Source: Clostridia bacterium (lineage in GTDB: Bacteria; Bacillota; Clostridia; Oscillospirales; Acutalibacteraceae). From it: DNA of 60,158 nt. The translations under genes and the position numbers were made by a program. Below the pieces are notes generated by a model. It was not told where the DNA came from, searched no databases, and worked only from the letters and a program-made list of their open reading frames with translations. Below are positions 27,516-45,579 of this stretch, one piece after another. Position 1 is the first letter of the stretch. Each line of letters begins with the position of its first letter. Location of the stretch: assembly GCA_017550625.1 (NCBI GenBank), contig JAFZOL010000057.1:1-60158 (forward strand), written 5' to 3'.

Positions 27516-28451
27516 TCAGCGCTTTTTACCGCCCTTTTTCTTCTTTTTGTGATGGACCCTGTTTTGGGCGAGTTCCTTTTTGCGCTGTTTTTCTTTCGAC
27601 GTGAACACCTTTTCCAGAAAGGCGTAGGACCTGCCTTTCGGCAGCGGTTCGTTCGGCTGCGTCTTGTAAAGGACCCAGACCCATATGCCGGCAACGATCA
27701 GCACGACTACGCAGAAGGCCTGCCAAAGGGTAAGGCCGAAAACGAAGTACCGCGTTTCGGGCGAATACCAGCGGAAGTGCTCCCAGAAAAAGCGCACCGC
27801 GCCGTACATGAAAGCGGCAAGGGGACCCGCCATGCCGCGGCGGTAAAACCGCGACTGCTTGATGTAATAAGACACGATCACGATGGCGAAGAGCGAAGCG
27901 CTCTCAAAGATCTGCACGGGGAACAGGGTCTTGTTCAGTTGGGGATTCATAAGGCCCCAGCTCCATTCCACGCCCATGCAGCAGCCGTTGATCGCGCAGC
28001 CGATCTTGATGGTAGCGAAAACGACGAACGCCCCCGGGATCATCAGGTCCATGGTATCGCGAAAGCTCACGGTTTTCGGCGCGGCCCGCTTCTTTTTCTG
28101 GTCCCCGTCGGCTTCGGCGTCCGCTTTTTCCTTTTTCTTCTGCCAAAGCTTCAAAAACCATTTTTCGGGATACACCGCCGCCAGAAGGAACACGGTGGTA
28201 AAGATCACCGCGCCGAGCATGTCCACTTTGATCTTGGGATACCAGTCTTTCAGCGAGGCGATCAGATTATAGACCTGCCCCACGAGCCACGCCCCGCACA
28301 AACCTCCGCCGAACGTGATAAAGCAATATATAAAGGCGCGCAGACGCGAGATCCCGTAAGCCCTGCTTCTGACGGTGCACAGCACCAGCATGAACAGAAA
28401 GCCCAGCAAGTAGGTCGCGTCGTAGATCAGCATCCGGGTAATGATGTTCAT
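27516..28451 (-). CDS. Lgt-like membrane protein, paralogue 2
   Basis: The 311-aa protein is homologous to its downstream neighbour: KIGCAINGCCMGVEWSWGLMN, LFPVQIFESASLF, RRGMAGPLAAFMYGAVRFFWEHFRW and GLTLWQ. The central cytosolic loop is lysine-rich (KKKEKADAEADGDQKKKRA) and the C-terminus is very basic (NRVHHKKKKKGGKKR). The HGG motif is also missing (FGGGLCGAWLVGQVYN). The start at 28451 has AAAGGAG upstream; the longer frame adds a helix without a ribosome site. It is the first gene of a two-gene operon with its own promoter. Confidence 0.75.
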   Translation of the reverse strand: MNIITRMLIYDATYLLGFLFMLVLCTVRSRAYGISRLRAFIYCFITFGGGLCGAWLVGQVYNLIASLKDWYPKIKVDMLGAVIFTTVFLLAAVYPEKWFLKLWQKKKEKADAEADGDQKKKRAAPKTVSFRDTMDLMIPGAFVVFATIKIGCAINGCCMGVEWSWGLMNPQLNKTLFPVQIFESASLFAIVIVSYYIKQSRFYRRGMAGPLAAFMYGAVRFFWEHFRWYSPETRYFVFGLTLWQAFCVVVLIVAGIWVWVLYKTQPNEPLPKGRSYAFLEKVFTSKEKQRKKELAQNRVHHKKKKKGGKKR

Positions 28452-28488
28452 CCTGAGGTCTCCTTTCCCGAAAAGTCGGTTCATAACG

Positions 28489-28517
28489 AGTATACAAAAA
28501 GCGGTTTGAAAAGTCAA
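28489..28517 (-). promoter_or_regulatory. Promoter of the Lgt-like operon
   Basis: Minus-strand TTGACT (28512-28517) and TATACT (28489-28494), spacer 17 nt. Confidence 0.75.
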
Positions 28518-28528
28518 TATCAAAAACC

Positions 28529-28568
28529 GCGGCGGCACGGCACGGCGGCGCGCCCGTGCCGCGCCGCA
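28529..28568. other. GC-rich hairpin in the divergent spacer
   Basis: GCGGCACGGCACGG can pair with CCGTGCCGCGCCGC. There is no T run, so it is not a normal terminator. The rest of the 364-nt spacer (28452-28815) is AT-rich leader for the giant gene plus promoters; no ORF was seen. Confidence 0.45.
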
Positions 28569-28708: not shown

Positions 28709-28737
28709 TTGAAAAAAATATCGTATTTATATAAAAT
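28709..28737 (+). promoter_or_regulatory. Likely promoter of giant gene 1
   Basis: TTGAAA (28709-28714) and TAAAAT (28732-28737), spacer 17 nt, in an AT-rich tract. The untranslated leader would be about 70 nt. Confidence 0.55.
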
Positions 28738-28815: not shown

Positions 28816-31800
28816 ATGAAAAAAACAACATTCACCAAAGCACTGAGTCTGTTCCTCTCTTTTGTCATGGCATTCTCAGTCACAGCAGTGGCGTTGCCGC
28901 TGCTGGCCCCCGAGGCAAAGGCCGCGCCGTCAACGGCGGATTACGAGAATCTTGCCACGAAGATTGATAACGCCACGGTGAAAGACTCCACGCATTATCT
29001 GACGCAGGGGGACGAATGCTCGATCACCGATCCCACCGGTGAGATCCTTGCTGCCGCGGAACAATACTGGACCGTGTTCAACAAGCTTTATTCTCAGAAC
29101 GCAGACCAGAACTCTTCCACCCGCACGTCAACGCAGATCAACAACGTCATTCTGAACAACGTGCAGGGCAAGAACACTCTGACTGAGGTGCAGAATCGAA
29201 CCATTCTGAAGTATTTCGATCCCGGCACGAATGTCAGCGAAACAACGACCAGCACTTCCACCCTTACCGCTGTTACGAAGAAAGTGACGGTGACCGTGCT
29301 GGACGCGGTGCTTCTGTATGCGAACGCGCAGTCCGTTCCCACCACAGTGACGAAGAAAGTCATTTATCAATACTATAATACGGATGCGAGTTACGAATCC
29401 GGAACCGGCTGCAATAAGAAAACCTATCATTATCTGACGCTGTCCTCCGCGTCCAGAACGCCTGAAACGGTCGACACGACCGTGATCAAGAGCCTGTATG
29501 ATGTCGCAACGAGTGAAGCTTATGCTGAATATCTCACGAAGGATATCTCCCAGCTGCTCACGTTGGATAATGATACGCTCAACGCCGTGAAGACCGCGCT
29601 CACCACGCGGTATAACGCTCTGATCAATGTGACAACTTTCGACGGCCAGGCTGCGTACACGAAGTATTTCGGAACGCCCGGTATCGACGTCAAAGGCACG
29701 ATCGATCGCATCACTGAAGCGCTTGGCATGATCACCTACATCGAGGCCTGTGAGTATCTGATGGATCAGCTCGATGTGGATATCGACGCGCTGGATTTCC
29801 AAGGGCTTTCGGATCTCTATACGGAGATGGATCAGAAATTCACGTTCTATAACAGCGCGACCGCTTCCACGAAAGAGTATCTCGAAGAACACGACTATAT
29901 CGACGTTGCACAAGTTACGGCCAAGATCGCCGCTGTTAAAAAGGCGCGCGACCTCTACTATCTCGTGCACACCCTCAAGCCGAGGATCGAGGCCGACCTC
30001 GCGACCTACGCCGGCTATACCGACGACTGGGTTGTCGCTACCGAAGGCGTTGAAGGTATCATTGCGGCCGCCGAGGTCGAGATCGGCTTAGTGATCTCCG
30101 ATCTCAGAGCCCGCAGCTCCGAAGCGGTCGCCGAGGTGTTCGGCGCCGAAACCGAGGCGTATATCTCCGCCACGTTCGATCCCGTTGACGCGCAGTTCGC
30201 GAGGATCCGCGAGGTCAACGGTTACAACCTGAGCTTCAAAGAGTATCAGAGCGTTTACAACAGTGTGTTCCTGCCTCTGACGCTTGAAGAGACCTCCACG
30301 CAGCTTCTGAACATCCTGAACCAGAGAGACGCTTGGTATACTGAGCTTCTGGAATTCGTGGAAGAGGTCAGGGCATACGACGAAACGGTTGCCGAAAAGA
30401 TCTTCACCGACGCTGAAGCCGCGATGGAAGATAAGATCGACGCGACCTATTCCGCGCTGAACATCATCCTCGAAAACGAGATCAACTTTGCTTGGGGTCT
30501 CTATGAGAACCTCAGAGACGAAACGGGGCTTCAGATCACCGAGGCGAACATCAACACGTATAACGATTTGAAGAGCAGCGTCGGCATGATCGAAGTCAAC
30601 GTTTATAATTTCCTGTTCAACAGCCCGAATTTCAATTTGACCGAACAGGCGCAGAATCGGTATAACGAACTGAAAAACATCGTTATCGCGCTGAACAACT
30701 ACACGCCCTCCAAAACGCTTTCCGCCTATCGGTATAACGCGGTCCAGCTCGATCCCATCGTGCGCACCGTTTCGAAGGACGAACCGGGCAACGAGCGCGA
30801 TTACTACGATGTCGCCCGCGATCGCGACTATACCGTCACCGACGAAGCTTACAACACGCTGATCCAGTCCCTGCAGAATCTCATTCTGGATGGCGGTCTT
30901 GCCGATCTGGGGCTTGATTTCGATCTTGTCGACACGTTGGACGGCATCCCCGAGAAGGTGTATACCGATAAATTCGTGAACAGCATCATGGACGCTGTCT
31001 ATCCCATGCTCTGCGAGCTTGTCAGAGACATGCTCAACGAAAAGGGCGGCAGCCTCATCGGCCTTGCCGGCGACCTTGACGACGCCTTCGCAAAGCTCAA
31101 TGTCGGTCTCGCGCCCAAAAAGGTCGGCAGTTACGTCCCGTCAAGGTATTCCACGATCAAAAACCTTCTGACCAACACCTCAGGCGGTTTCATGGACGGC
31201 GATGCCGACGCCGGCACGAACTGCTGGAACAGCAGCAACGCCAGAAGCAGGCTTTATAAAGTCGCTACGGATGAAAACGGCGAAAACATTCTCGACGATG
31301 ACGGCAATGTCACCTATGAGCTGGTCTTCGACTGGGGCATCGACGCCGCTGAAGGGCTCGACGCGAAACGCGAAGCCTTCCTCGACGCGATCGACGCCGC
31401 CCTCAAGGCGCTTGAACCCCTTCTTATGGGCCTGCTGTGCAATAAGAAGGTCAACGATACGAAGATCGTTTCGATTTCCATTATTTGGGAAGTTGCTTCC
31501 CTCACGATGGGCGTCTATCCTAACGACGGCTACAACAATACCCTGCTTCCGATCTTCGAAGCTATGGGTGTTGACGCCAGCGCGCTGAAAGACGCGAAGA
31601 CCTACACGAGCGTCAGAGACGTCGTGAAATACGGTCTCGTGGAACCCGTGCGGAACCTCTTCGAACAGATCAAGGAAAGACCCCTTGAGAAGATCCTCGA
31701 GCTCCTGCCGAACCTTGCCTTTGCCGTACAGCACAATCTGATCCTTGAGCTGCTCAACAACCTGGTCCTCAACCTTCACGTTGTCGGCAGCGGCTGCGCG

Positions 31801-34800
31801 GACAGCATCAACGATTCGCTCGATAACGGCATGATCTACGTCAATCTCGGCGACAGAGGCACCCTCGACCTCTCCGATATCCTCGGGATCGACACCTTCT
31901 ATGAGGATTTCATGACCATGGACGGTGTGGTCGATATCCTGCTCGGCCTGCTCAATCCCGCTGAGGAAACTGAAGAAGGCGAAGAGCCCGCGCCCGAGCT
32001 CAAGCTGCCCCATATCGACGGCGCCAAGCTTGCCATGCTCGGCACGGACGTGGAATGGAACGACTCGTTCCGCTCCAAGAGCCAGATCATCTATGAAGGC
32101 CGCTCGAACATCCACGCCAACATCATCGTGGATCAGCCGAAGGTGATGCAGGGCATTCTCGAATACCTTGTCAGAGCGTTGGGCGACGAAGACTTTGTTG
32201 CCACGCTGAAGACCATGCTCGCCAAGGACGAAGAGCCCGCTGCCGGCACGGAACCTGCCGAGCCCGCTGATCCCGAGAATCCCGACGAGCCGGCAGAACC
32301 GCCTCTGATCGATCAGATCCTTGAGAATATTTCGAAGAACGGAACCGACGCCATCGCAGCCATCTTTGAACTGATTTGTCCCGCCGATCCGAAATATACT
32401 TCGCCTCAGAAGATCACATGGATCACCGAGGGCAACATCGGCGCGGGCGACTACCAGTATTGGAAAGAATCCAATCCCGAGCAGAACGGAACGGCCTGGT
32501 CGTATCAGGATGCGAAATTCGCAGACGACAACCTTGAAGATCTTCTCGATCAGATCGTTCTTCTTGTCCATAACATGCAGGCAGACGAAGAAGAGAAGAC
32601 CTTCGGCGAAGCAACCGACTTCGCCGGTGCGGTTGATTATCTGCTCAACCAGAAGCTCTTCACCGCCGATCTTGCCAACACGCTTCTGCATACATTTAAA
32701 GATTTAATGAACGGTAAGGGCGAGCTGGAAGACGGCACCGTTGATACCGGTCTCAAGGGCATGCTTCCCGATCTTGTCACAAAGTTCCGTCTGCTTGAGC
32801 AGCTCGGGCTTGATATCACGGCTTGGGATGACATCGAAGACTATGCCTTTGAAAACGGTGACGCCGATGCCTTCAAGGCCGCGCTTATCGAAGTCCTCAG
32901 CCCGCTGAACAACCTTCTTGCTTTCATTCTGACCGGCGAAGACGATATCCATCTCAGCATTCTCGGGCTTGATCTCACTGCTGTGAGCTACGACGGCTAT
33001 TCTTACGGCCTTGTGCCTTTCCTTGAGGCGCTCGGCGTCAGAACGGAAGACGGTCTCAAGACCACCGCCGAATTTGCCGCGGATTCTGAGAATATCGTCG
33101 CGAACATTGTGAATCCCGTATTCTCACTGCTTGACAGCATCACCGCCGATCCGCTCGAGTTCATCCGCAACACCTTGCCCGCCCTCATCTACTTCGATAT
33201 GGTCGGCGGCCTTCCCGTTGCGATCGAACATCTGAAGATGAGCGTGAACGTCCTGCTCGACACCATCCGCCCGATTTACGATGTGAATCTCGATTCGCTC
33301 TTCACCGGCGCTGTGTTCGATCTGAATTCCGTGGCGACCGATCCTCTCAAATATGTGATGTCGCTGCTGTCCGATATGATCTACGAAGCCACCGCCGATG
33401 AAAACGGTGAAAACGGCGTGCGTGTGTTCGTGGACTTCACGCTTGACACGTTGAAACAAACGATCCATTACACCGATCCCATCGAGTTCAATTCCGCCAA
33501 CGGCGATAAGGCGTACACGATCACGCTTGATCCTACCTACGGCAGACCCGAACTTCTTGCCCGCATCTTCGACTACCTGATCGAACAGATCAACTATAAG
33601 GACGAAGAGACCGGCGCCGACAATCCCGCCGCGATCGGACGGATCCTCTCCGATCTTCTCGGCGACGATGAAAAGGTGGTTGAGACCGTCGGAAAGATTG
33701 TCTCGAACCTCACCGATAATTACACCGATTCCGTCCTTGTCATCTTCAAGCTGCTGTTCCCGAGAGATCCCGAAGTGCCGAGTGAGACGAATCCCACCGA
33801 CCGTGAGGATATGTCCCCCGTCAAGAAGATCGAATGGATCACCGAAGGCACGACTTCGACCGAACCCTTCTGGACCACCGACGAAGTTCCCGGCAAGACC
33901 CCCTGGAGACAGGCGGACGCCGAATACGCCGCGAGCCATCTTGAAGAGCTTTTGACCGGCGTGATCAAACTGCTCGCCGATACCGACACTCTCGGCGGAG
34001 CCGAAACCATTGCCGAAGCGGTCCAGAATCTCACGGGTTCGCTGTTCACCGCTGATAACGCCAATAAGATCGTTTCGGCGATCAAGGATCTGCTCGGCGG
34101 CTTCGATTTGCCCGATCTCGTCGTTGACCTCGGCGTGCTCCAGCAGCTCGGCCTTGCCGAAGTGATCGTTACCGAAACTCCGGCCGAAGACGAAGAATCC
34201 GAACCCACCGTGACCAAGACCGTCAAATGGGCTTGGGACGATATGGACAACTTCAACTTCGAAGACGGCGATACCGCGGCCTTCAAGAACGCCCTGATCA
34301 CCATCGCTAAGCCGCTCACGCCCATCCTTGCTTATCTGCTTGCAGGCAAGACCCTCGAGCTGCCCGTGATGGATGCGCTCGTTGTCAAGTCTCTCGGCTA
34401 CGACGGCTATTCCTACGGCATCGTGCCGCTGCTTGAGGCGCTCGGTGCTGAAGGCGTCAAAACCACCGACGAATTCCTTGCCGATCCCGAAAACATCGTC
34501 AAGAACGTGATCGATCCGCTCTTCACCGTCGTTGATCATCTGATCGCGAACCCGGTGGCGACCCTCACCGACCTCATTCCCGCGATCCTCTACTTCAATC
34601 AGGTCGACGGCATCCAGGTCGCGCTCGACAACATCCTCTTCTCCATCAACGCTTTGTTCAGACTCATCCAGCCGCTCTACGAAGTCGATCTCTACGATCT
34701 CGTGAAAGAGCTGACCGCCAAAGAGGGGAGCGAAGGCATTGACCTCGAAACCGTCAACGGCGACTTCATCGTCGAAGCGCTGCTCGGGCTTGCCTCCGAA

Positions 34801-37800
34801 AAGGTGACTGAGCTCGGCATCACGCTCGATCTTGACCTCGCGCTCGAAGATCTGATGAACGATCTTCAGTTCAGCGATCCCACCAAGTTCGATTCCGCCA
34901 ACGGCGACGACGCCTACACCGTGCGCATGACGGCAGAAGGCAAGGCCAGACTCTTCGCCACCGTTATGGATATCGTGATCGCCCAGATCGGCACGGAAGA
35001 GAACCTTGCCTCCATCAAGGCGATGGTTGCCGAAAAGCTCGGCGACAACGAACAGGTCCAGGCCGCGGTCAACGAGATCCTCGATAACGTCGTCGGCAAC
35101 TACACCGACTCCGTCCTGGTCCTCTTCAAGCTCCTCTATCCGAGAGAGCCCGAAGAGCGTGCGGATATGACGCCCGTCAAGAAGATCAACTGGATCACCG
35201 AAGGCAATATCGGCAGCGAGCCTGTGGATCCCTTCTGGTCCACCGAAAGCACCGAAGGCTACACCAAGTGGACGAAAGTTGACGCCACGTATGCCGAAAG
35301 CCATCTCGATGAGATCCTCGACAACGTTGTGAAGCTTCTCGGCGACAAACTCGGCGGTGCCGAAGACCTCGGCGACGCGCTCAACTACGTGCTTGCCAAT
35401 GTGATCACCGCCGAAAACGCCAACAAGATCGCTGAAGCCCTTGCCGGCGTGTTCGAAGGCATCGCGCTTCCCGAAGAGGTCGGTGAATACATCTCGCTCG
35501 CGCCGCTCGGCATCGACGCTGCCAACTGGACCGGATTGAGCTACAGCTTCGAAGACGGTGATACCGAAGAATTCAAGAAAGCCCTGATCGAGATCCTCGA
35601 GCCGCTCACGCCCATCCTTGCTTACCTGCTTGCGGGCCAGACCCTCGAGCTGCCCGTGAAGGATGCGCTCACGGTCAAGAGCTTCGGCTACGACGGCTAC
35701 TCCTACGGCATCGTGCCGCTGCTTGAGGCCCTCGGCGCCACCAATATCATGACCACCGAGGATTTTCTCGCGGATCCCGACAACATCGTCAAGAACATCG
35801 TTGACCCGCTGTTCACGGTCGTCGATCACCTGATCGCCAACCCGATGAACACCATCCGTAAGCTGATTCCGTCGCTCATCTACTTCAATAAGGTGGACGG
35901 CATCGGCGTCGCGATCGACAACATCCTCTTCTCCGTCACCGCGCTGATCGACATGATCCAGCCGCTCTACGAATTGGATCTGTTCGAGCGCATCAAGGAC
36001 TTCACCGCCGGTGAAGACAGCGAAGGCATCGACCTCAGAACCGTCGACGGCGAATTCATCGTCGAAAAGCTCCTCGGAGTCGCTTCCAAGGCGATCACCG
36101 AGAACACGCCCGTCACCGTGAACCTTGAGCTCACGCTTGACCAGCTCGCGAACGTCCTTCTGTTCACCGCGCCCAAGAAGGTCACCTCCGCCAACGGCGA
36201 CGACGCCTACACTGTTGAGCTGTCCGCAGAAGGCAGAGCCAGACTCCTTGCCGTGGTGCTGGATATCGTGATGGAGACCATCGGCAAGTCCGAGAACAAG
36301 GCCGCGATCAAAGAGGCTGTTCATGAGGCAGTGACCGACGAACAGGCGCAGGCCATCGTTGACGAAGTGATCGATAACGCCGTCGCCAACTACACCGACT
36401 CCGTCATGGCGCTTGTTATCCTCATGTATCCCAGAGATCCTGCCGAACCGAGCGAGACGAATCCCACCGACCGTGAGGATATGTCCCCCGTCAAGAAGAT
36501 CAACTGGATCACCGAGGGCAACATCGGCTCCGATGAGGACTGGATGGGTTACGCCGACATTCCCGAAGGCGAGAGGACCCTGTGGACCAAAGAAAAGGCC
36601 GTCTACATGGCCGAGCATCTCGGCGACTTCCTCAACGACATCGTCGTGATCTTCGGCGAACAGCTCGGCGGCGCCGAGACTGTTGACCAGGCCGTTGAAT
36701 ACCTGGTGAAGGATATCTTCACCGCCGAGAACGCGAACAAGATCGCGAAGGCGCTGTATGACTTCGTCGACGGCCTGAACCTTCCCGAGATCGTGGCTGA
36801 CCTCGGCGTGCTCGAGCAGCTCGGCCTCGAAGCCTCGAACTGGGAGGGCATGACCTTCAGCTTCGCCGACGGCGACAGAACCGCGTTCAAGAACGCCCTG
36901 ATCACGATCATCAAGCCGCTTTCGCCCGTGCTTTCCTTCCTGCTTGCCGAAAAGCAGCTTGAAGTCATCCTCAAGGATGCGCTTCCGATCCGTGCCCTCG
37001 GTTACGACGGTTACTCCTACGGCATCGTGCCGCTGCTCGAGGCCCTCGGCGCCACCGGTCTCAAGAAGACCGCCGCCTTCAAGGCCGACACGGCTCACAT
37101 CGTTGAAAACATCATCAACCCGCTCTTCACGATCGTCGACCATCTGATCGCGAACCCCGTGAAGTTCATCGAAGACGTGATCCCCGCGATCCTCTACTTC
37201 GATAAGGTCGAAGGCATCCAGGCCGCCGTCCCGAACCTTCTGTTCGCGGTCGAAGCCCTGCTGCACGTCATCTCCCCGCTCTACGACAAGATCGATATCT
37301 ACGAGCTCGTCGAAGAGAAGACCGGCATTGACCTCACCTTCGAAAACGAAGACCCGATCGACGTCGTGCTCGACCTGGTCACCGACATGGTCGAAGACAG
37401 CACCGGCATCAAGCTCAACCTTGAGTCCGCCGCTGAGCTGACCGAGGCGCTCGAGTTCGAAGAGCCCACCAAGTTCACCTCCGCCAACGGCGACGACGCC
37501 TACACCGTGCGCCTGACCGAAACCGGCACGGCCGCCCTGCTCTCCAGAATTCTGGACTACGGCGTCAACCAGGTGATCTTCGAGGATAACTTCGACAAGC
37601 TGTCCGAGATCTTCAAGAGCCTCATCTCCGACGACGATACCCGCGCGTTCGCGATCGGTATCCTCGACATCATGAAGCACGCGGATCAGGATTACAGAGA
37701 TCTGCACGGCATCCACGACGTGGCGCTCGCCGAGCTGTTCTGGATCTTCTTCGGCGCGGATTCCGTGACCGACGCTGTGGCGGACTTCTTCTACCGCTAC

Positions 37801-38064
37801 AAGGATGCGAACTTCTTCGAGATCCTGTATCTCATCTCCGACAAGGCGCCCGATTACATCCAGCGCATCGAGTTCCTGATGAAGGAAGTCTACGCCGTTG
37901 AGTATCCGGCCGCTCTCGAGCTCATCGAGAACGCGGACGAATACCTCAAGCCGCCTTACGAGTATGACGAGCATGAGACGCAGGTCGTGTCCGGTGTTCT
38001 GGGCCGCATCCTCGCGTTCTTCACGCAGCTCATCAACTTCTTCAAGCACCTGTTCAACAAATAA
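28816..38064 (+). CDS. Giant secreted repeat protein 1 (3082 aa), unrecognised family
   Basis: I do not recognise this family. A signal peptide (MKKTTFTKALSLFLSFVMAFSVTAVALP) leads to a mainly helical, acidic protein. Residues about 40-700 form a helical region; a first module with NDGYNNTLLPIFEAMG follows (nt about 31,100-32,300). Four repeats then begin at residues 1200, 1672, 2124 and 2562 (nt 32413, 33829, 35185, 36499), each opening with WITEGNIG or WITEGTTS and containing YDGYSYGIVPLLEALGA, a DPLFTVVDHLIANP-like helix and an SANGDDAYTVRL strand. A C-terminal domain (HADQDYRDLHGIHDVALAELFWIFFGADSV) ends in GVLGRILAFFTQLINFFKHLFNK. No dockerin, sortase motif, SLH domain or enzyme motif was seen. 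Linkers are Glu/Pro-rich. A surface, adhesion or matrix role is inference. Confidence 0.85.
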   Translation: MKKTTFTKALSLFLSFVMAFSVTAVALPLLAPEAKAAPSTADYENLATKIDNATVKDSTHYLTQGDECSITDPTGEILAAAEQYWTVFNKLYSQNADQNSSTRTSTQINNVILNNVQGKNTLTEVQNRTILKYFDPGTNVSETTTSTSTLTAVTKKVTVTVLDAVLLYANAQSVPTTVTKKVIYQYYNTDASYESGTGCNKKTYHYLTLSSASRTPETVDTTVIKSLYDVATSEAYAEYLTKDISQLLTLDNDTLNAVKTALTTRYNALINVTTFDGQAAYTKYFGTPGIDVKGTIDRITEALGMITYIEACEYLMDQLDVDIDALDFQGLSDLYTEMDQKFTFYNSATASTKEYLEEHDYIDVAQVTAKIAAVKKARDLYYLVHTLKPRIEADLATYAGYTDDWVVATEGVEGIIAAAEVEIGLVISDLRARSSEAVAEVFGAETEAYISATFDPVDAQFARIREVNGYNLSFKEYQSVYNSVFLPLTLEETSTQLLNILNQRDAWYTELLEFVEEVRAYDETVAEKIFTDAEAAMEDKIDATYSALNIILENEINFAWGLYENLRDETGLQITEANINTYNDLKSSVGMIEVNVYNFLFNSPNFNLTEQAQNRYNELKNIVIALNNYTPSKTLSAYRYNAVQLDPIVRTVSKDEPGNERDYYDVARDRDYTVTDEAYNTLIQSLQNLILDGGLADLGLDFDLVDTLDGIPEKVYTDKFVNSIMDAVYPMLCELVRDMLNEKGGSLIGLAGDLDDAFAKLNVGLAPKKVGSYVPSRYSTIKNLLTNTSGGFMDGDADAGTNCWNSSNARSRLYKVATDENGENILDDDGNVTYELVFDWGIDAAEGLDAKREAFLDAIDAALKALEPLLMGLLCNKKVNDTKIVSISIIWEVASLTMGVYPNDGYNNTLLPIFEAMGVDASALKDAKTYTSVRDVVKYGLVEPVRNLFEQIKERPLEKILELLPNLAFAVQHNLILELLNNLVLNLHVVGSGCADSINDSLDNGMIYVNLGDRGTLDLSDILGIDTFYEDFMTMDGVVDILLGLLNPAEETEEGEEPAPELKLPHIDGAKLAMLGTDVEWNDSFRSKSQIIYEGRSNIHANIIVDQPKVMQGILEYLVRALGDEDFVATLKTMLAKDEEPAAGTEPAEPADPENPDEPAEPPLIDQILENISKNGTDAIAAIFELICPADPKYTSPQKITWITEGNIGAGDYQYWKESNPEQNGTAWSYQDAKFADDNLEDLLDQIVLLVHNMQADEEEKTFGEATDFAGAVDYLLNQKLFTADLANTLLHTFKDLMNGKGELEDGTVDTGLKGMLPDLVTKFRLLEQLGLDITAWDDIEDYAFENGDADAFKAALIEVLSPLNNLLAFILTGEDDIHLSILGLDLTAVSYDGYSYGLVPFLEALGVRTEDGLKTTAEFAADSENIVANIVNPVFSLLDSITADPLEFIRNTLPALIYFDMVGGLPVAIEHLKMSVNVLLDTIRPIYDVNLDSLFTGAVFDLNSVATDPLKYVMSLLSDMIYEATADENGENGVRVFVDFTLDTLKQTIHYTDPIEFNSANGDKAYTITLDPTYGRPELLARIFDYLIEQINYKDEETGADNPAAIGRILSDLLGDDEKVVETVGKIVSNLTDNYTDSVLVIFKLLFPRDPEVPSETNPTDREDMSPVKKIEWITEGTTSTEPFWTTDEVPGKTPWRQADAEYAASHLEELLTGVIKLLADTDTLGGAETIAEAVQNLTGSLFTADNANKIVSAIKDLLGGFDLPDLVVDLGVLQQLGLAEVIVTETPAEDEESEPTVTKTVKWAWDDMDNFNFEDGDTAAFKNALITIAKPLTPILAYLLAGKTLELPVMDALVVKSLGYDGYSYGIVPLLEALGAEGVKTTDEFLADPENIVKNVIDPLFTVVDHLIANPVATLTDLIPAILYFNQVDGIQVALDNILFSINALFRLIQPLYEVDLYDLVKELTAKEGSEGIDLETVNGDFIVEALLGLASEKVTELGITLDLDLALEDLMNDLQFSDPTKFDSANGDDAYTVRMTAEGKARLFATVMDIVIAQIGTEENLASIKAMVAEKLGDNEQVQAAVNEILDNVVGNYTDSVLVLFKLLYPREPEERADMTPVKKINWITEGNIGSEPVDPFWSTESTEGYTKWTKVDATYAESHLDEILDNVVKLLGDKLGGAEDLGDALNYVLANVITAENANKIAEALAGVFEGIALPEEVGEYISLAPLGIDAANWTGLSYSFEDGDTEEFKKALIEILEPLTPILAYLLAGQTLELPVKDALTVKSFGYDGYSYGIVPLLEALGATNIMTTEDFLADPDNIVKNIVDPLFTVVDHLIANPMNTIRKLIPSLIYFNKVDGIGVAIDNILFSVTALIDMIQPLYELDLFERIKDFTAGEDSEGIDLRTVDGEFIVEKLLGVASKAITENTPVTVNLELTLDQLANVLLFTAPKKVTSANGDDAYTVELSAEGRARLLAVVLDIVMETIGKSENKAAIKEAVHEAVTDEQAQAIVDEVIDNAVANYTDSVMALVILMYPRDPAEPSETNPTDREDMSPVKKINWITEGNIGSDEDWMGYADIPEGERTLWTKEKAVYMAEHLGDFLNDIVVIFGEQLGGAETVDQAVEYLVKDIFTAENANKIAKALYDFVDGLNLPEIVADLGVLEQLGLEASNWEGMTFSFADGDRTAFKNALITIIKPLSPVLSFLLAEKQLEVILKDALPIRALGYDGYSYGIVPLLEALGATGLKKTAAFKADTAHIVENIINPLFTIVDHLIANPVKFIEDVIPAILYFDKVEGIQAAVPNLLFAVEALLHVISPLYDKIDIYELVEEKTGIDLTFENEDPIDVVLDLVTDMVEDSTGIKLNLESAAELTEALEFEEPTKFTSANGDDAYTVRLTETGTAALLSRILDYGVNQVIFEDNFDKLSEIFKSLISDDDTRAFAIGILDIMKHADQDYRDLHGIHDVALAELFWIFFGADSVTDAVADFFYRYKDANFFEILYLISDKAPDYIQRIEFLMKEVYAVEYPAALELIENADEYLKPPYEYDEHETQVVSGVLGRILAFFTQLINFFKHLFNK

Positions 38065-38078
38065 GCTGAACGAACCTC

Positions 38079-38116
38079 AGAGCCCTCCCGGGAAACCGGG
38101 AGGGCTCCCTTTTTTC
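38079..38116 (+). terminator. Terminator of giant gene 1
   Basis: GAGCCCTCCCGG GAAA CCGGGAGGGCTC followed by CCTTTTTT, a 12-bp perfect stem with a GAAA loop, 15 nt after the stop codon. Confidence 0.93.
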
Positions 38117-38157
38117 CGCGGATACGCTGCGTCGCCGCGGCAGGGGAGCGGCGCACA

Positions 38158-38200
38158 AAAAAGGCCTTCGTTTACCATTACGGTCTCCGAAGGTTTTTTT
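38158..38200. terminator. Second hairpin with T run
   Basis: AAAAAGGCCTTCG ... CGAAGGTTTTTTT has a 6-8-bp stem with a large loop and A/T flanks, so it may stop transcripts from either side. Between it and 38388 I see AT-rich sequence without a gene. Confidence 0.5.
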
Positions 38201-38387
38201 CTGTCCGTTCCCTTTTTTTGTCGGTTACGGTTTCCGGCAGGGAAAACCGACAGAAAAACGCGTGTGTGATCTGCCCCTACCGCTTTGAATGCACGGATAG
38301 CCCGAAAGTGTGCAAAAATATAAAGAAAACTGCATATGTAAGAGGCAAAGGAACTCTGTGTTTCGATTTGTCCCATTGTAATAAAAA

Positions 38388-38416
38388 TTGACAAAAGCAC
38401 ATTCAAACTGCATAAT
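38388..38416 (+). promoter_or_regulatory. Upstream promoter of giant gene 2
   Basis: TTGACA (38388-38393) and CATAAT (38411-38416), spacer 17 nt, about 100 nt upstream of a second promoter. Confidence 0.6.
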
Positions 38417-38487
38417 AACCGGCAATATAAACATAAAAACGTAAAAATATTCAGCAAAAACGACGAAAAAGACTGCTCGCAAAACCC

Positions 38488-38516
38488 TTGTAAATCCCGA
38501 ATCGAATATGTATAAT
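38488..38516 (+). promoter_or_regulatory. Proximal promoter of giant gene 2
   Basis: TTGTAA (38488-38493) and TATAAT (38511-38516), spacer 17 nt. Confidence 0.7.
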
Positions 38517-38590
38517 GGAATAGAAAATATGCATTCTGGCGGCATGTGTTGAAAAACGCTGCCGCCGGGGCAAAGAAAGGATGTGTTTCT

Positions 38591-41500
38591 GTGAAGAACA
38601 AAACACTGAGAAAGTATTTATGTATCGTTCTTTCGCTGGTGATGGCCTTCTCGGTAACGGCTGTCGCTCTGCCGCAGTTCGCGCCGACGGTATTCGCCGC
38701 CAACATCAGCGATGCGCAGTGGAATACCCTCATCGCCGCGCTCAAGCTCGATAACGTGAAGGACGCGCAGTTCAACGCGGACGGGACCAACGCCGTGAAG
38801 GCTGACGACCCATCCGGCAACCTGCTCGTCGCAGCCGAAGCGTACTACGACGCTTTCAACACCTATAAGGCGATCCAGACGGGCAACGGGTCCGAAAACA
38901 ACGCCGGCGCCAACACCCGCACCGCCAGTAAGGTGAACGCTTACATCAAAAACCAGCTCCAGACCAAGATGGGCGATGATTTTACGGCCTATAACGTCGC
39001 GAACGTCCTGCTCGGCTTCAACGCGAACTATTCCTTAGACACGCTGTCGAGCAACGACTACGGCACCTCCGCAAGGGACGGCGTCACGCTCAAAGTCACG
39101 ATCACCAATTCCGTCGGCGTGCTTGGCTATGACAGCATTGCGACCCTTCCGGATTCAGTGATGACGCAGGTCGTTTACACCTACGTGCACGGCGATACCT
39201 ATTATTCGACCGGCTCCGGCTGTAATGCTGTGGAGCATCACTATGCGCGCCTTACGAGCGTCACCCGCACGCCTACCTCGGCCAACACGAGTGCGATCAA
39301 AACCCTTTATAACGTCTGCGTAAACAACGCCGCGTATTTCGGCTACTCGTTCGACGAGCTGCTCGCCCTGGGCGAGGATGGCCTTGCCGCCGCGAAGACG
39401 CTCTTCAAAACGCCCTACGACGCCCTGCTCAACGCCTCCGGCTACAGCGGCGCCGCCGCCTATGAAAAGTATATCTCCGCTTATGACGTCGCGGGCCTGA
39501 TCGATCAGATCGACGCCGCGATCGCGATCGCGAGCTATGTCGAGATCGCCCAGTGGCTGCAGTCGAAAACGGAAGTCGTCGTCGCCGAGCTCTCGTTCCA
39601 AGAGCTGTCCGACCTCTACTTCCTGATGCGCACCAGATACAATAACTATAAGTCCGCGCCCGCCGCCGCGAAAAGCTATCTCGAAGAGAACGGCTACATC
39701 GATATCGACGCGGCCGACGCGAAGTTCATCGAGATCGAAAACGAATATGAGCTCAGGTATCTGCGCGACGTGCTCGCGCCCCGCATCGAAGAGGACCTCG
39801 CGCTCTATGCGACCTATGACGACGACTGGGTGATCGCCACCGGTCCCGACGCCGTCTCCGCCGCCGTTTCCGCCGCGATGATCGAGCTCGAATCCATCCG
39901 TTCCGATCTGTCGTCCAAAAAGCCCGAAAACGTTGTCGCCGTGTTCGGTGAGGATTATTTCGAAACCGTCATCCAGCCCGTGATCGACGGCTTTGAAGAC
40001 GTGCTCGACACGAACGACCTCAACCGTCAGTTCCTCAATTATCAGGCGACCTACAATTCGGTCTTTGCGCCCCTTACGCTGAACGAGACCTCCACGCAGC
40101 TGCTTAACATCCTGCGTCAGCGCGACGGCTGGTATTCCGATCTGCTCGCGTTCGCCGAAGAGCTGCGCAATACGAATCCCGAGCTCGCCGCGAAGATCTT
40201 CACCGACGCCGAAGCCGCCATGGAAGCGAAGATCAACGCGACCTACGCCGCGCTGAACGCGATCCTCGAGGGCGAGATCAACGACGCTTACGCCATCTAT
40301 CTCGACCTTGTCGAAGCTACCGGTCTTGTGATCGACGAGGTCACCATGGATAACTACAACGAGCTGCGCAGCTCCATCGGCCTCATCGAGGTGGACGCCT
40401 ACGAGTTCCTCGAGGGCTCGCCGAACTTCACCCTCGCGCCCGAGACCGTTGAGAAGTATGAGGCGCTGCGCGACATCCTGATCGCCCTGCGCAACTACGA
40501 TCCTTCCCACACCCTTTCTGCTTATAAGTATAACGCCCAGACGCTCGAGCAGATCATCCGCTACGTCAGCGCGAAGGACATCGTCCGCGACCGCGATTAC
40601 GCCGTTGAAGACGCCGACTTCGCGAATCTCATCGGCGTGTTGCAGAATCTTCTGACCGGCGATGGCCTTGCCGCCCTCGGCGTTGAGCTCGACATCGCCG
40701 GCACGCTCGACGGCATCTGGAATACGTTCTATACCGATAAATTCGTGAACACCCTGATGAACGCGCTCTATCCCATGCTGGCCGAACTGGTCCGCGATCA
40801 GTTGAACGAGCTGGTCGGCAGTTATCTGAGCCTGATGGGCAATCTCGACGACGCGTTTGCAAAACTGAACGTCGGTCTGTCGCCGAAGAAGGTCGGCAAC
40901 TATGTTGACAGCAGCAAATATCCGGCGATCGCGAACGCTCTGAAAGGCGTAACCGGCAGCGACAGCGGCTTCATGTACGGTGATGCGGAAGCAGGCACAA
41001 ACTGCTGGAACAGCACCGAAGCAAGAAACGAGCTTTACAGAGCAGTGGTTGATGAAAACAATGAGCCTGTGCTGGACGAAGACGGCAACCCCACCTATGA
41101 GCTGATCTTCGACTGGGGCATCGACGCCAAAGAAACGCTCGCAGAAAAGAAAGAAGCCTTCCTTGAGGCCGTCGACTCCGCCCTGAAGGCCCTGCAGCCT
41201 CTGTTTATGGCGCTGCTCTGCAACAAGGCCGTTGCGAAGACGCAGATCGTTTCCGCGCTCGGCGGTTTGGCGACCGTGTCGATGGGCATGTTTGCCAACG
41301 ACGGCTATAACAACACGCTGCTTCCGATTTTTGAAGCTCTGGGCGTGCACGCGGACGCGCTGTACGACGCGAAGACATATACGAGGATCAGAGACATCTT
41401 TGAATTCGGGCTCTTCTCTCCGCTTGCCGATCTGCTCGATCAGATCAAGGGGACCCCGCTCGAAAAGATCCTTGATCTTCTGCCGAACCTTGCCTTTGCG

Positions 41501-44500
41501 ATCCAGAACCAGTTGTTCCTTGAACTGCTCCACAACCTGAAGGTCGACCTCGATATCTCGGGCGGCGGCTGCGCCGGCGGCATCATCAACAATCAGCTTC
41601 CGGCGGAAGGCGTTTCGATCGACCTTTACGAAGAACTTGACTTTGTCGACCTGCTCGGCGTCGAGACCTTCTACGACGATATCAAAACCATGGACGGCGT
41701 GCTCAAGATCCTGATGGGCCTGCTCATGCCCGCTGAGGAAGCCGAAGAAGGTGAGGAGCCCGCGCCCGAGCTCGTGCTCCCGCATATGGACGGCGCGAAG
41801 CTCGCGATGCTCGGCACCGACGTCGAGTGGAACGATTCGTTCCGCTCCAAGAGCCAGATCACTTACGAAGGCCGCGTGGACGTGCACGCCAACATCATCG
41901 CGAACCGTCCGCAGGTCATGCAGTTCCTTGTGGAATTCCTGCTCGAGGCGATCAAGGACGAAAACTTCCTGCCCGCCATTCAGAATATGCTTGCCAAGGA
42001 AGAGGAACCCGCCGAGGGTGACGAACCCGCCGAGCCTGCTCCCGAGGAGCCCGCGGAGGCAACCCCCGACATCCTGACCACCATTCTGGATAATATCATT
42101 ACAAACGGCACCGACGCCATCGCCGCGATCTTCGAGCTGATCCGTCCCGCCGACCCGAAATACACGATGCCCGACGCGATCGACTGGATCACCGAAGGCA
42201 ACATCAACAGTGAAGATCAGTATCAGGTCGTTTGGGCGGACTTCGCCGGCGACGTGGGCGATCTCAACGTCAAAGACTACCAGACCAAGTGGACCAAAGC
42301 GGATATCAGCTTCGTTGATTCCAAGTTTGAACAAGTCCTCGGCTACATTCTCAAGCTTGACTTTGTCTCCGAAAAGATCGGCGGCGCGACCACCGTCGGC
42401 GGCGCGATCGAATATCTGCTCGCGAACTTCATCACGGCGGATACCGCCAACTCCCTTGTTGAGACCATCGGCGGCCTTTTCGGCGGTCTTGAACTGCCCG
42501 AGGCGATCGCGGATCTCGGCCTGCTCGAGCAGCTCGGCCTCGACGTCAATGCCTGGGACAACATGACCTTCAACTTTGAACCCGGCGATCTTGACGCGTT
42601 CAAGGCTGCGCTCGTTACGATCCTGAATCCGCTGAACGACATCCTTGCCTACGTCCTCACCGGCGCGAAGAATCTCGAGCTGAGCGTTCTCGGCCTTGAC
42701 CTCACCGCCGTCTCCTACGACGCCTATTCCTACGGTCTCGTGCCGCTTCTTGAGGCGCTGAACTCCAAGGCCGTTCCGACCACCGCATACCTGCAGGCGA
42801 ACCCCGACAAGGTCGTTTCCGGCATCGTTGACGCCCTCTTCAGCGTTGTCGATCAGCTCCTCGACGATCCCATCGGCTTCCTTCGCACCGTCCTGCCGAA
42901 GCTCATCTACTTCATCAAGGTGGACGGCCCCAAGGTCGCCGCGAACCACCTTCTGGTTTCCGTCAACGTCCTGCTCGACACCATCCGTCCGATCTATGAT
43001 ATCGATCTCTTCGCGCTCATCAAAGAGCTCACCGCCAAAGAGGACGAAGAGGGCAACGTGGAACCCGGCGTCGACCTGAACGCGATCCTTGCCGATCCCG
43101 TGAGCTTCCTGCTTCAGACGGTCGTCGGGCTCGTGTCCGAGAAGCTGGGCATCACCCTTCAGATCGACTTCGAGCTTGAAGATTTCGTTCACACCATTCA
43201 CTTCACCGATCCCACCCGCTTCGATTCCGCGAACGGCGACGACGGTTACACCATCGCCCTGAGCGAAGACGGCCGGCTCGAGCTTCTTGCCCGCACCTTC
43301 GACTTCGTTCTCGGTCAGGTCCTCTTCAGGGATAACTTCGAGCTCATCACCGACGCCGTGGCCGGTCTTGCCGGCGAAGGTGAAGAAGTGCCCGCCATCG
43401 TCACCGACATCCTCAACAACGTCAAGAACAACTATCCCGATTCCATCGTCGCCGCCTTCCGCCTCCTGTTCCCGGATCGGAAGGATATGAGACAGGAATA
43501 CAACACCTATCCTCGCCTGGAGGGCTACTCGCCGCTCAAGGCTGCTCCGGTCATTGAATGGACCACCGAAGGCAACATCGGCGCGGCTGACGACTGGATG
43601 GGCACCGACGCCCTTCCCGAAGGCCACAAGACGCTGTGGACCGAAGAAAAGGCCGTCTACATGGCGGAGCACCTCGGCGACTTCCTGAACGATATCGTCA
43701 TCATCTTCGGCGAGCAGCTCGGCGGCGCGTCCACCGTGGAAGAAGCGATCGACTTCCTTGTCAAGAACTATCTGACCGCCGAGAACGCCAACGCCATCGC
43801 CGCGGCGCTCAAGAACCTGATCGCCAGCCTCGGCCTGCCCGACACGATCTTTGACGTCGCGAAGCAGATCGGCGTCGATCTCACCGCGTGGGACGACATG
43901 AGCTTCAGCTTCGCCGACGGCGACAAGACCGCGTTCAAGAACGCCCTCATCGAGATCATCGATCCCATCGCGCCCATCCTGCGCATGATCCTTGTGGACA
44001 AGGGCGACCTCGAGGGCACCGTGCTTGACGCCCTTCCGATCACCATCCACGGCTACGACGGCTATTCCTACGGCATCGTGCCGCTGCTCGAGGCCCTCGG
44101 CGCCACCGGCGTCAAGACCACCTCCGCGTTCAAGGCCGATAAAGCCCACGTCGCCAAGAACCTTGTCGATCCCGTGTTCTCGATCCTCGATCATCTGATC
44201 GCAGATCCCATCGCGTTCATCGAGGACGTGCTTCCGGGCATCCTGTTCTACGATTACAACAAGGGCGTTCAGGTCGCGATCCCGAACCTGCTCTACGCCA
44301 TCAACGTCGTGCTCGACACACTCTTCCCGATCTACGACCTCGATATCTATGAGCTCGTCGAAGAAAAGACCGGCGTCGACCTGCACTTCGCCGAAGAGAG
44401 CCCCGTCGACTTCCTGCTGACCAAGATCGCCGATGTGATCGAAGAGAACACTGACGTGCGCATCAACATCGACTTCACGGTGGCCACGCTCACCGAGACG

Positions 44501-45115
44501 CTGCACTTCACCGAGCCCGAGGCCTATACCTCCGCAAACGGCGACACGGCGTACCGGATCCGCCTGACCACCCAGGGCAAGGCGGAGCTGCTGTCCAGAG
44601 TCCTCGATTACGGCATCAATCAGGTGATCTTCGAGGATAACTTCGACAAGCTGTCTGAGATCTTCTCCGGTCTCATCACCGACGACGATACGAGAGCCTT
44701 CGTGATCGGCCTGCTCAGCATCATGAAGCACGCGGATCAGGATTACAGAGACCTGCACGGCATCCACGACGTGGCGCTCGCCGAGCTGTTCTGGATCTTC
44801 TTCGGCGCCGACAGCGTGACCGACGCGGTGGCGGACTTCTTCTACCGCTATAAGGATCTCAACTTCTTCGAGATGCTTTACCTCATCTCCGACAAGGCGC
44901 CCGATTACATCCAGCGGATCGAATTCATTTACGCCGAGGTCCTTGCCGTTGAGTATCCGGCCGCGCTCGAGCTCATCGAAAACGCGGAAGACTATCTGAA
45001 ACCGCCTTACGAGTATAACGAGCATGAGACCGCTGTCGTGTCCGGCGTTCTCGGACGCATCCTCGCGTTCTTCACGCGGATCATCAGCTTCTTCAAGAAC
45101 CTGTTCGGCAGATAA
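38591..45115 (+). CDS. Giant secreted repeat protein 2 (about 2174 aa), paralogue of protein 1
   Basis: The frame is open from 38546, but a GTG at 38591, with GAAAGG ten bases upstream, begins a signal peptide aligned with the paralogue (LSLVMAFSVTAVALPQFAPTVFA). The N-terminal helical region matches protein 1 (LEETSTQLLNIL versus LNETSTQLLNIL; KIFTDAEAAME in both), as does the first module (NDGYNNTLLPIFEALG). Only two repeats follow, at residues about 1197 and 1655 (nt 42179, 43553). The first keeps features of repeat 1 of protein 1 (LGLDLTAVSYD-YSYGLVP) and the last those of its repeat 4 (PEG..TLWT.EKAVYMAEHLGDFLNDIV). The C-terminal domain is nearly identical, ending GVLGRILAFFTRIISFFKNLFGR. 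Function unknown; no enzyme or anchoring motif was seen. Confidence 0.85.
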   Translation: MKNKTLRKYLCIVLSLVMAFSVTAVALPQFAPTVFAANISDAQWNTLIAALKLDNVKDAQFNADGTNAVKADDPSGNLLVAAEAYYDAFNTYKAIQTGNGSENNAGANTRTASKVNAYIKNQLQTKMGDDFTAYNVANVLLGFNANYSLDTLSSNDYGTSARDGVTLKVTITNSVGVLGYDSIATLPDSVMTQVVYTYVHGDTYYSTGSGCNAVEHHYARLTSVTRTPTSANTSAIKTLYNVCVNNAAYFGYSFDELLALGEDGLAAAKTLFKTPYDALLNASGYSGAAAYEKYISAYDVAGLIDQIDAAIAIASYVEIAQWLQSKTEVVVAELSFQELSDLYFLMRTRYNNYKSAPAAAKSYLEENGYIDIDAADAKFIEIENEYELRYLRDVLAPRIEEDLALYATYDDDWVIATGPDAVSAAVSAAMIELESIRSDLSSKKPENVVAVFGEDYFETVIQPVIDGFEDVLDTNDLNRQFLNYQATYNSVFAPLTLNETSTQLLNILRQRDGWYSDLLAFAEELRNTNPELAAKIFTDAEAAMEAKINATYAALNAILEGEINDAYAIYLDLVEATGLVIDEVTMDNYNELRSSIGLIEVDAYEFLEGSPNFTLAPETVEKYEALRDILIALRNYDPSHTLSAYKYNAQTLEQIIRYVSAKDIVRDRDYAVEDADFANLIGVLQNLLTGDGLAALGVELDIAGTLDGIWNTFYTDKFVNTLMNALYPMLAELVRDQLNELVGSYLSLMGNLDDAFAKLNVGLSPKKVGNYVDSSKYPAIANALKGVTGSDSGFMYGDAEAGTNCWNSTEARNELYRAVVDENNEPVLDEDGNPTYELIFDWGIDAKETLAEKKEAFLEAVDSALKALQPLFMALLCNKAVAKTQIVSALGGLATVSMGMFANDGYNNTLLPIFEALGVHADALYDAKTYTRIRDIFEFGLFSPLADLLDQIKGTPLEKILDLLPNLAFAIQNQLFLELLHNLKVDLDISGGGCAGGIINNQLPAEGVSIDLYEELDFVDLLGVETFYDDIKTMDGVLKILMGLLMPAEEAEEGEEPAPELVLPHMDGAKLAMLGTDVEWNDSFRSKSQITYEGRVDVHANIIANRPQVMQFLVEFLLEAIKDENFLPAIQNMLAKEEEPAEGDEPAEPAPEEPAEATPDILTTILDNIITNGTDAIAAIFELIRPADPKYTMPDAIDWITEGNINSEDQYQVVWADFAGDVGDLNVKDYQTKWTKADISFVDSKFEQVLGYILKLDFVSEKIGGATTVGGAIEYLLANFITADTANSLVETIGGLFGGLELPEAIADLGLLEQLGLDVNAWDNMTFNFEPGDLDAFKAALVTILNPLNDILAYVLTGAKNLELSVLGLDLTAVSYDAYSYGLVPLLEALNSKAVPTTAYLQANPDKVVSGIVDALFSVVDQLLDDPIGFLRTVLPKLIYFIKVDGPKVAANHLLVSVNVLLDTIRPIYDIDLFALIKELTAKEDEEGNVEPGVDLNAILADPVSFLLQTVVGLVSEKLGITLQIDFELEDFVHTIHFTDPTRFDSANGDDGYTIALSEDGRLELLARTFDFVLGQVLFRDNFELITDAVAGLAGEGEEVPAIVTDILNNVKNNYPDSIVAAFRLLFPDRKDMRQEYNTYPRLEGYSPLKAAPVIEWTTEGNIGAADDWMGTDALPEGHKTLWTEEKAVYMAEHLGDFLNDIVIIFGEQLGGASTVEEAIDFLVKNYLTAENANAIAAALKNLIASLGLPDTIFDVAKQIGVDLTAWDDMSFSFADGDKTAFKNALIEIIDPIAPILRMILVDKGDLEGTVLDALPITIHGYDGYSYGIVPLLEALGATGVKTTSAFKADKAHVAKNLVDPVFSILDHLIADPIAFIEDVLPGILFYDYNKGVQVAIPNLLYAINVVLDTLFPIYDLDIYELVEEKTGVDLHFAEESPVDFLLTKIADVIEENTDVRINIDFTVATLTETLHFTEPEAYTSANGDTAYRIRLTTQGKAELLSRVLDYGINQVIFEDNFDKLSEIFSGLITDDDTRAFVIGLLSIMKHADQDYRDLHGIHDVALAELFWIFFGADSVTDAVADFFYRYKDLNFFEMLYLISDKAPDYIQRIEFIYAEVLAVEYPAALELIENAEDYLKPPYEYNEHETAVVSGVLGRILAFFTRIISFFKNLFGR

Positions 45116-45259: not shown

Positions 45260-45528
45260 CAACACCTGTGAACGGGAGTAAGTACGCTTCGTTTTTCTTT
45301 CTCAGAGAGCCGCCTTTCGGTGCGACGCGGCAAAGAATGCGTTGCGGAATGGACCCGCGAGGGCGAACCGAAAGCGGCCGCGAGTAGGGGAGACGGGCGC
45401 CGCCCGTTACAGCGGATAGGCTTACGCAAAGCGAGAGCCGAACAGAGTGGGCGGTTTTTTTCCGTCAAGCAGGGTGGCACCGCAGGAAGTTTTCCTGTCC
45501 CGGCAAATTCCAGCCGGGGCGTTTTTTT
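45260..45528 (+). promoter_or_regulatory. T-box leader of trpB2 (Trp specifier UGG)
   Basis: The conserved T-box AGGGTGGCACCGC lies at about 45471-45483. Stem I carries the GAACGGGAGTAAGTACG-type start, AGAGAGCCGCC with GGTG in the distal region, and on the 3' side GGAA-TGG-ACC with TGG at 45350-45352, a tryptophan codon. The terminator is CCCGGC ... GCCGGG with GCGTTTTTTT (45499-45528). Uncharged tRNA(Trp) should allow readthrough into trpB2. Confidence 0.92.
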
Positions 45529-45551: not shown

Positions 45552-45579
45552 CGTCCCGAAAAAGAAAGGAGAAAAAACC

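Follow-up and report, generated by a model that had tools for sequence, protein, structure and literature searches.

Giant bacterial proteins are already known (PMC12863079, PMC13104272). The staphylococcal adhesins Embp and Ebh are described as exported surface proteins of about 1 MDa, and the Embp repeats, of about 125 and 170 amino acids (aa), as two helical bundles each, with solved structures (PMC7587433). Apilactobacillus kunkeei encodes Giant1-5, extracellular proteins of 3,000-8,000 aa specified by adjacent genes that occupy about 6% of a small genome (PMC12863079), and very large proteins from Oscillospiraceae metagenome-assembled genomes (MAGs) have ~40,000 residues and many InterPro domains (PMC13104272). 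Here we describe a stretch of 60,158 nucleotides (the window; contig JAFZOL010000057.1 of assembly GCA_017550625.1) from a Clostridia bacterium, an uncultured and probably gut-dwelling organism, in which two adjacent genes encode paralogues of 3082 and about 2174 aa that appear to be exported. Both carry an N-terminal domain, an array of related modules (one of type A, then type B only) and a C-terminal domain ending in an aromatic tail. We see roughly even chances that these giants are surface rods which arose by amplification of module B of a membrane-anchored, two-module (A-B) partner of a MacB-type transporter.

Like Embp and Ebh, the window proteins are giants of a Gram-positive lineage with long tandem, mostly helical repeats and export predicted from the sequence, and the putative C-terminal membrane region of Embp/Ebh may be counted as a further likeness (PMC7587433). 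They differ in the size of the module (~400-480 aa), in the two beta hairpins of its model, in having no significant match among PDB sequences or by Foldseek, in the occurrence of a form with just two modules next to an ABC transporter gene, and in their usual end, the aromatic tail. The FIVAR and GA (F- and FG-) repeats were not found in either protein by Pfam, NCBIfam or PDB sequence and fold searches, and because these defining repeats were not found the window giants are not members of the Embp family. With A. kunkeei the window shares neighbouring genes for giant extracellular proteins, but Giant1-4 have beta-solenoid N-terminal domains, whereas the N-terminal domain and modules are here predicted to be largely helical (PMC12863079). 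The Oscillospiraceae proteins likewise come from gut-associated uncultured lineages and are of extreme size, yet their ~40,000 residues with many InterPro domains are unlike the window pair (PMC13104272). The module itself is apparently undescribed in the sources searched; a literature survey, partial and thus no proof of absence, found neither the module nor the aromatic tail.

Both genes have intact open reading frames (ORFs), shared modules and homologues elsewhere, bearing out the original prediction, made from the sequence alone, of two neighbouring exported paralogues with one layout. Gene 1 runs from an ATG at 28816 to a stop at 38064, and its product begins with MKKTTFTKALSLFLSFVMAFSVTAVALP, which reads as a signal peptide; the start at 28888 chosen by a simple codon-usage caller was set aside because it falls inside this signal peptide, which begins at the 28816 start. 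The open frame of gene 2 covers 38546-45115 (+; 2189 aa). Its preferred start, a GTG at 38591, has AAAGAAAGGATG upstream, falls at the position that aligns with the first residue of protein 1 and gives a product of 2174 aa whose N-terminus also reads as a signal peptide.

Windowed BLAST placed copies of the repeat in protein 1 at about residues 1200-1672, 1672-2123, 2124-2560 and 2561-2962, and an iterated profile added a divergent copy at about residues 675-1195 (30838-32400) that holds the motif NDGYNN; a profile from the six regular copies already matches part of this region. The NDGYNN region is the divergent first copy of the repeat, module A. It had been taken for a separate module preceding a novel ~450-aa repeat: the novelty held up in the searches reported below, but NDGYNN is itself one repeat copy, and a single module family occurs in two types, A first and then B. 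Protein 1 has five modules and protein 2 three (one divergent, two regular), and those of protein 1 are acidic (net -256 across 2311 residues). When the two proteins were compared in 50-residue windows (protein 1 residues 1-1675 and 2557-3082), identity in the compared parts was 26-74% per window up to residue 2911, and third codon positions at identical residues were 28-85% identical, mostly 50-80%. Three windows at 2912-3061 reached 84-96% protein identity, with 71% over the last 21 residues and third positions there 0.76-0.87 identical. The nearly identical C-terminal domain noted originally is real, and it additionally carries a tail that recurs on other proteins; its conservation would fit either a recent exchange or strong constraint.

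A midpoint-rooted maximum-likelihood tree of 115 modules split into 36 A and 79 B modules, with a support of 0.998 on the B side. All 13 transporter-linked proteins open with an A module, which a B module follows, and each of the two sets was a clade with a support of 1.0. Using profiles of the two clades, 72 ORFs were classed (training members and truncated ORFs included), and 59 of them contained a single A followed by B only. Small forms read AB, the window proteins ABB and ABBBB, and the largest, a protein of 10,643 aa, A-B17. Departures from the rule include ORFs cut at stretch edges (among them G024 C277, G028 C13 and G027 C6, where L, G and C numbers are our handles for loci, genomes and contigs), L136 with a single A, and L135 with AA and BB in two neighbouring frames. 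The two L135 frames, at 4677-7211 (AA) and 7215-9965 (BB), share a reading frame with one stop between them; the gene may be split, the sequence may contain an error, or the stop may be read through.

In the giants both ends are conserved, and it is the interior that expands. The final B copies of six giants from three genera formed one clade (0.99), as did the last copies of both window proteins together with those of L021, G007 and G023 (0.993). A 12-module giant encoded elsewhere in the same genome paired with an 8-module giant of another species (G012) over copies 2-4 and over the final two, with a different middle, and in protein 1 B copies 2 and 3 pair late in the tree (support 1.0). At the other end of the proteins, a profile of the ~660-aa N-terminal domain matched 30 ORFs; 24 of these matches were nearly complete, those in the giants of G028, G033 and G034 included; the rest were five small lipoprotein-type members (~45 residues) and one partial match.

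The small form of the family points to a transporter. At 13 of 32 loci, from 13 genomes and six genera, an A-B gene whose product has one C-terminal hydrophobic helix stands immediately ahead of a MacB-like ABC/FtsX gene in the same orientation. The products of the latter are about 915-944 aa long (two are cut by the stretch end), and the copies analysed show the hallmarks of MacB: an N-terminal ABC domain, the membrane helices (four in MacB), a large extracytoplasmic domain after helix 1 and an FtsX domain. In the L062 copy Pfam recognised ABC_tran (1e-34) and FtsX (1.4e-16), and MacB was the best NCBIfam model by E-value, yet at 273.7 bits against a cut-off of 966 it fell short of the equivalog score. 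Hydropathy of four copies gave four segments in two and five (two of them abutting) in two, with ~480 residues after the first. MacB relatives work with extracytoplasmic partners in Gram-positive bacteria, and because of this and the gene order the A-B protein is most likely such a partner of the MacB-like transporter (PMC5985334). Like MacA and YknX, it is a putative extracytoplasmic protein anchored in the membrane, and its gene neighbours one of MacB type. It differs from them in that none of the known adaptor domains (HlyD-like hairpin, lipoyl, beta-barrel) was recognised by Pfam or NCBIfam in three transporter-linked A-B proteins (L056, L061 and L062), and in that its predicted helix is C-terminal whereas the membrane helix of MacA is N-terminal (PMC5985334). 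At the five of these 13 loci that belong to the window's own genus, a gene for a putative MscS-type channel, as judged from its sequence, lies nearby.

The giants end differently. By eye, an aromatic amphipathic tail closes 31 of the 35 ORFs of at least 1700 aa whose 3' end is included, in weaker versions in L021, G018 and G023. Other ends found on the same modules are a transmembrane helix with a charged tail, a lipobox in four small members (L055, L065, L066 and L129) and, only in L133, L136 and L139, a sorting-signal-like TGD or NGD with a hydrophobic stretch and a basic end. A profile of 13 tails, one of them from the window's own genome, gave 21 matches in that genome at E up to 10, 14 of them below 0.1 (L153 among these being the mirror copy of L152); 13 of the 14 are no more than 11 residues away from a stop codon (for protein 1 judged by its coordinates, for the others by a second scan), and the match in L158 is near the N-terminus. 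Besides four giants, the carriers are GDSL lipases (L149, L151, L159), an M6 peptidase (L152) and ORFs with no clear Pfam match, and weaker matches fell on a PETase-like hydrolase (L161), a choline-binding protein (L162) and a cadherin-like protein (L167); in the longer tail-bearing ORFs the last ~520 residues were scanned for domains. Because unrelated exported proteins carry it at their C-terminus, we read the tail as an anchor that probably holds the giants at the membrane or cell envelope. Exported proteins L150, L152, L154 and L155 share a recurrent end, CxxCGxxHTGFF...FFHRIxYFFxNLF, a possible zinc-ribbon plus aromatic tail for which no clear Pfam or NCBIfam model was seen.

Searches for known families returned little. 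With both window proteins, Pfam and NCBIfam gave nothing above cut-off or at E < 0.05, and PDB sequences gave nothing at E < 0.2 for protein 1 or an 11-module profile; the best E-values across these searches were 0.05 to 0.33. The small members had no Pfam matches above cut-off, the NCBIfam matches of L056 (best 1.8e-5, at 24 bits where the cut-off is 450) were confined to its charged C-terminal region, and PDB sequences searched with a single small member gave nothing below E 0.39. The original report had seen no fold, anchor or catalytic motif; as to fold and profile this stands, but the absence of an anchor is doubtful, given the resemblance of the tail to the ends of unrelated exported proteins. 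An enzyme identity was rejected, there being no motif or profile match. A prophage or plasmid origin was rejected as well: scans of a viral collection (with protein 2 and with the module profile) found no relative, tblastn of protein 2 against plasmids and phages gave zero matches, and the matches in PHROGs were weak (best E 5e-4), no single stretch passing by itself. PADLOC returned nothing for the module proteins and generic ATPase matches for the MacB-like transporter.

As had been proposed, a repeat copy was modelled and its structure searched. AlphaFold2, given one B module with a shallow alignment of 10 further modules, taken from the window and from L021, predicted a compact fold (pLDDT 79.4, pTM 0.78), mostly helical and rich in hydrophobic helices, with four short strands resembling two hairpins. 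Against the PDB, Foldseek returned 91 matches when E up to 10 was allowed; the best had E 0.33, none reaching 0.001, with TM at most 0.20 among the best 50 of the 91; against viral models nothing was significant (best E 0.3). The fold of the module is likely to be new, judged from this model against the PDB and viral models. The model of the N-terminal domain was weak (pLDDT 67, pTM 0.44) and better predicted in a bundle of long helices in its middle, in agreement with the helical N-region noted earlier. Its weak helical-bundle likenesses in Foldseek, spectrin repeats included (best E 0.075; TM at most 0.30 among the best 50 matches), were not counted.

Export, length, conserved first and last modules, a variable interior and a probable tie at one end are most parsimoniously explained if the giants are surface rods. 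The ancestral unit would have been an A-B protein of two modules and a single transmembrane helix, its gene directly upstream of that of a MacB-type ABC transporter. Gain of the N-terminal domain and the aromatic tail would have turned this unit into a giant, and multiplication of the interior B modules would have produced a chain of variable length. Such a long acidic fibre could hold out numerous module copies at a distance from the cell, most likely in adhesion or scaffolding, and the length of the rod could be tuned through the number of B copies, in a way of working comparable to that of Embp (PMC7587433). What the calculations establish are the modules, the A-then-B order with its exceptions, the constancy of the ends beside a growing interior, the order of the genes and the recurrence of the tail; ancestry, surface display, rod shape, transporter partnership and adhesion are deduced. 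A likely origin would then be readable from the sequences, leading from a two-module membrane protein encoded beside an ABC transporter gene to arrays of up to 18 modules. This makes a cooperation of A-B and MacB-like proteins concretely testable and opens a way into the surface biology of little-studied Clostridia; the aromatic tail, if a true anchor, would allow surface proteins to be predicted in these bacteria. We put forward more tentatively, as distinctly less probable than the rod, that A-B proteins form a new, lineage-specific class of extracytoplasmic partners of MacB-type (mechanotransmitting) ABC transporters with an unseen fold, the B half of which became a fibre of up to 17 copies held by a C-terminal aromatic amphipathic anchor, undescribed so far, that many exported proteins of these bacteria would share.

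Several observations weigh against the surface rod. The host is uncultured and the giants are known from sequence alone, from which their display at the surface is deduced; the structure models cover one B copy and, poorly, the N-terminal domain. Thirteen of the 72 ORFs break the A-then-B rule, and at least L142, L143 (BB), L144 (AABB) and L146 (AAB) are not obviously cut. The tail is absent from L142, L143, G034 and G020, its reading as an anchor is an analogy of position, and its helical moment (0.50 and 0.58, best of four 18-residue windows) is high, not extreme, against a background along protein 1 with a 95th percentile of 0.46 and a 99th of 0.51. Nineteen of the 32 loci have no full-length MacB-like gene beside the module gene, some of the stretches being short or cut; they include six lipoprotein-type loci (lipobox seen in four) and five with a C-terminal helix (L077, L133, L136, L139 and L140), the rest being giants or cut frames. 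The search for a MacB-like neighbour of the window giants was negative, and the link is seen for the small A-B form. A TetR-type gene upstream, considered as a constant part of the operon, was dropped on being found at only 6 of the 13 transporter-linked loci.

The reading of the tail bears on the strongest alternative, in which the giants are released as matrix or sheath proteins and the aromatic tail serves self-association rather than anchoring. The window proteins show no LPxTG-type signal, SLH domain, dockerin or C-terminal transmembrane helix, by eye and in Pfam, and the diversity of the exported proteins that bear the tail would suit such a role. However, the modules of other family members bear membrane or lipid anchors, and the fairly high helical moment of the tail fits membrane binding, though it does not prove it. 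We regard release as unlikely.

A little less likely still, the B modules may bind a hydrophobic or peptide ligand handled by the MacB-like transporter, and the giants would then be storage or relay chains instead of adhesins. This would account for the gene order at the A-B loci and would accord with the extracytoplasmic partners of MacB relatives in Gram-positive bacteria (PMC5985334) and with the richness of the module in hydrophobic helices. These helices may simply form the core of the fold, however, and no MacB-like neighbour of the window giants was seen: the ABC half-exporter downstream of the pair, at 47960-49726 (+), differs in type from the transporter of the small A-B loci.

Cleavage of the giants after export, as polyproteins that release free modules, is in our view improbable. 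An earlier study is cited as having suggested that extremely large bacterial proteins are processed into smaller ones, and some such proteins come from Oscillospiraceae (PMC13104272), but conserved ends, an expanding interior and one leading A in 59 of the 72 ORFs fit an ordered array better than interchangeable products. Finally, that the pair is an assembly artefact or a non-coding open frame of a GC-rich genome is hardly credible, for although long antisense open frames overlie both giant genes and one contig of the genome is palindromic, it is already contradicted by homologues in each of the 26 congeneric genomes searched and in a MAG that bears a name, the protein is conserved while third positions diverge, and the palindromic contig is a different one, C59.

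The taxonomic spread, which the original prediction had singled out as a check, proved to be restricted to a lineage, with the proteins present in relatives. In all 26 genomes of the genus that were searched the protein of the small form finds a match, which need not itself be a small form in each: in G001 it comes in pieces, and in G016 and G021 it lies within frames of ~1840 aa. Within the family, 30 of 200 genomes, spread over 18 of 135 genera, matched the module profile. In a draw from the order it matched 3 of 295 genomes, namely the window's own, one of the same family and one of another family (a 75%-complete genome, E=1e-17), and in draws from the class (291 genomes) and the phylum (299) only the own genome; the draws overlap and include that genome. 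Judged from these scans, the module family is nearly confined to one bacterial family. Congeners share the layout of the window giants, and so does the MAG Ruminococcaceae bacterium RUG11941 (39% identity in the best segment, residues 19-2185 matched), whose RUG series name we take to mean 'rumen'. The own genome has further module frames, stop to stop, of 6951 aa (C22), 6702 aa (C46), 1051 aa (C60; a lipoprotein judging by its start) and 1050 aa (C59).

Some of these contigs have peculiarities of their own. C59, with L056 and L057, is self-mirrored (8780 of 8780 compared bases equal), and its genes appear twice, probably through an assembly artefact. A 10,643-aa frame is found in both G016:C38 and G021:C13, with equal bit scores and mirrored coordinates, perhaps on a shared or cross-binned contig. 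Single in-frame TGA codons occur inside family-ORF matches in four draft genomes (G003:C10, G009:C60, G011:C143 and G023:C139).

The features of the locus are collected in Table 1. A promoter region for each gene and a terminator after gene 1 had been proposed, and promoter-like pairs and a 12-pair hairpin with a T run are indeed present, as consensus matches.

Table 1. Coordinates of the giant genes, their domains and flanking signals in the window
Feature	Position	Strand	Size or basis
Promoter-like site upstream of gene 1, TTGAAA-17-TAAAAT	28709..28737	+	consensus match only
Giant protein 1: signal peptide, N-terminal domain, A-B-B-B-B, C-terminal domain, tail	28816..38064	+	3082 aa
Signal peptide region, protein 1, residues 1-35	28816..28920	+	read from sequence
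N-terminal domain, protein 1, about 650 aa, mostly helices in weak model	28930..30891	+	also in giants of other genera
Module A, protein 1, divergent first copy with NDGYNN	30838..32400	+	iterated profile, tree
Module B copy 1, protein 1	32407..33840	+	BLAST, profile
Module B copy 2, protein 1	33817..35199	+	BLAST, profile
Module B copy 3, protein 1, copy used for AlphaFold2	35170..36513	+	profile
Module B copy 4, protein 1, clusters with relatives' last copies	36484..37755	+	profile, tree
C-terminal domain, protein 1, near-identical to that of protein 2	37756..38061	+	alignment
Aromatic amphipathic C-terminal tail, protein 1	37999..38061	+	sequence, tail profile
Terminator-like hairpin after gene 1, 12 pairs then T run	38080..38107	+	sequence
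Promoter-like site upstream of gene 2, TTGACA-17-CATAAT	38388..38416	+	consensus match only
Giant protein 2: signal peptide, N-terminal domain, A-B-B, C-terminal domain, tail	38591..45115	+	2174 aa
N-terminal domain, protein 2	38708..40663	+	profile
Module A, protein 2, approximate limits	40610..42172	+	alignment with protein 1
Module B copy 1, protein 2	42176..43543	+	profile
Module B copy 2, protein 2, clusters with relatives' last copies	43538..44770	+	tree
C-terminal domain and aromatic tail, protein 2	44771..45112	+	alignment, tail profile

An Rfam scan of the window gave zero matches at the gathering threshold. At 45440-45560, ahead of a PALP gene, GGGTGGCACCGC is followed by a terminator-like hairpin, a segment which we presume to resemble a T-box leader, Rfam giving no match to it at that threshold. 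Directly upstream of giant gene 1, two adjoining genes that both match LGT (prolipoprotein diacylglyceryl transferase) lie at 26662-28538 (-), and on the other side of the pair the ABC half-exporter gene is followed, within 47960-51734 (+), by an ORF of 672 aa.

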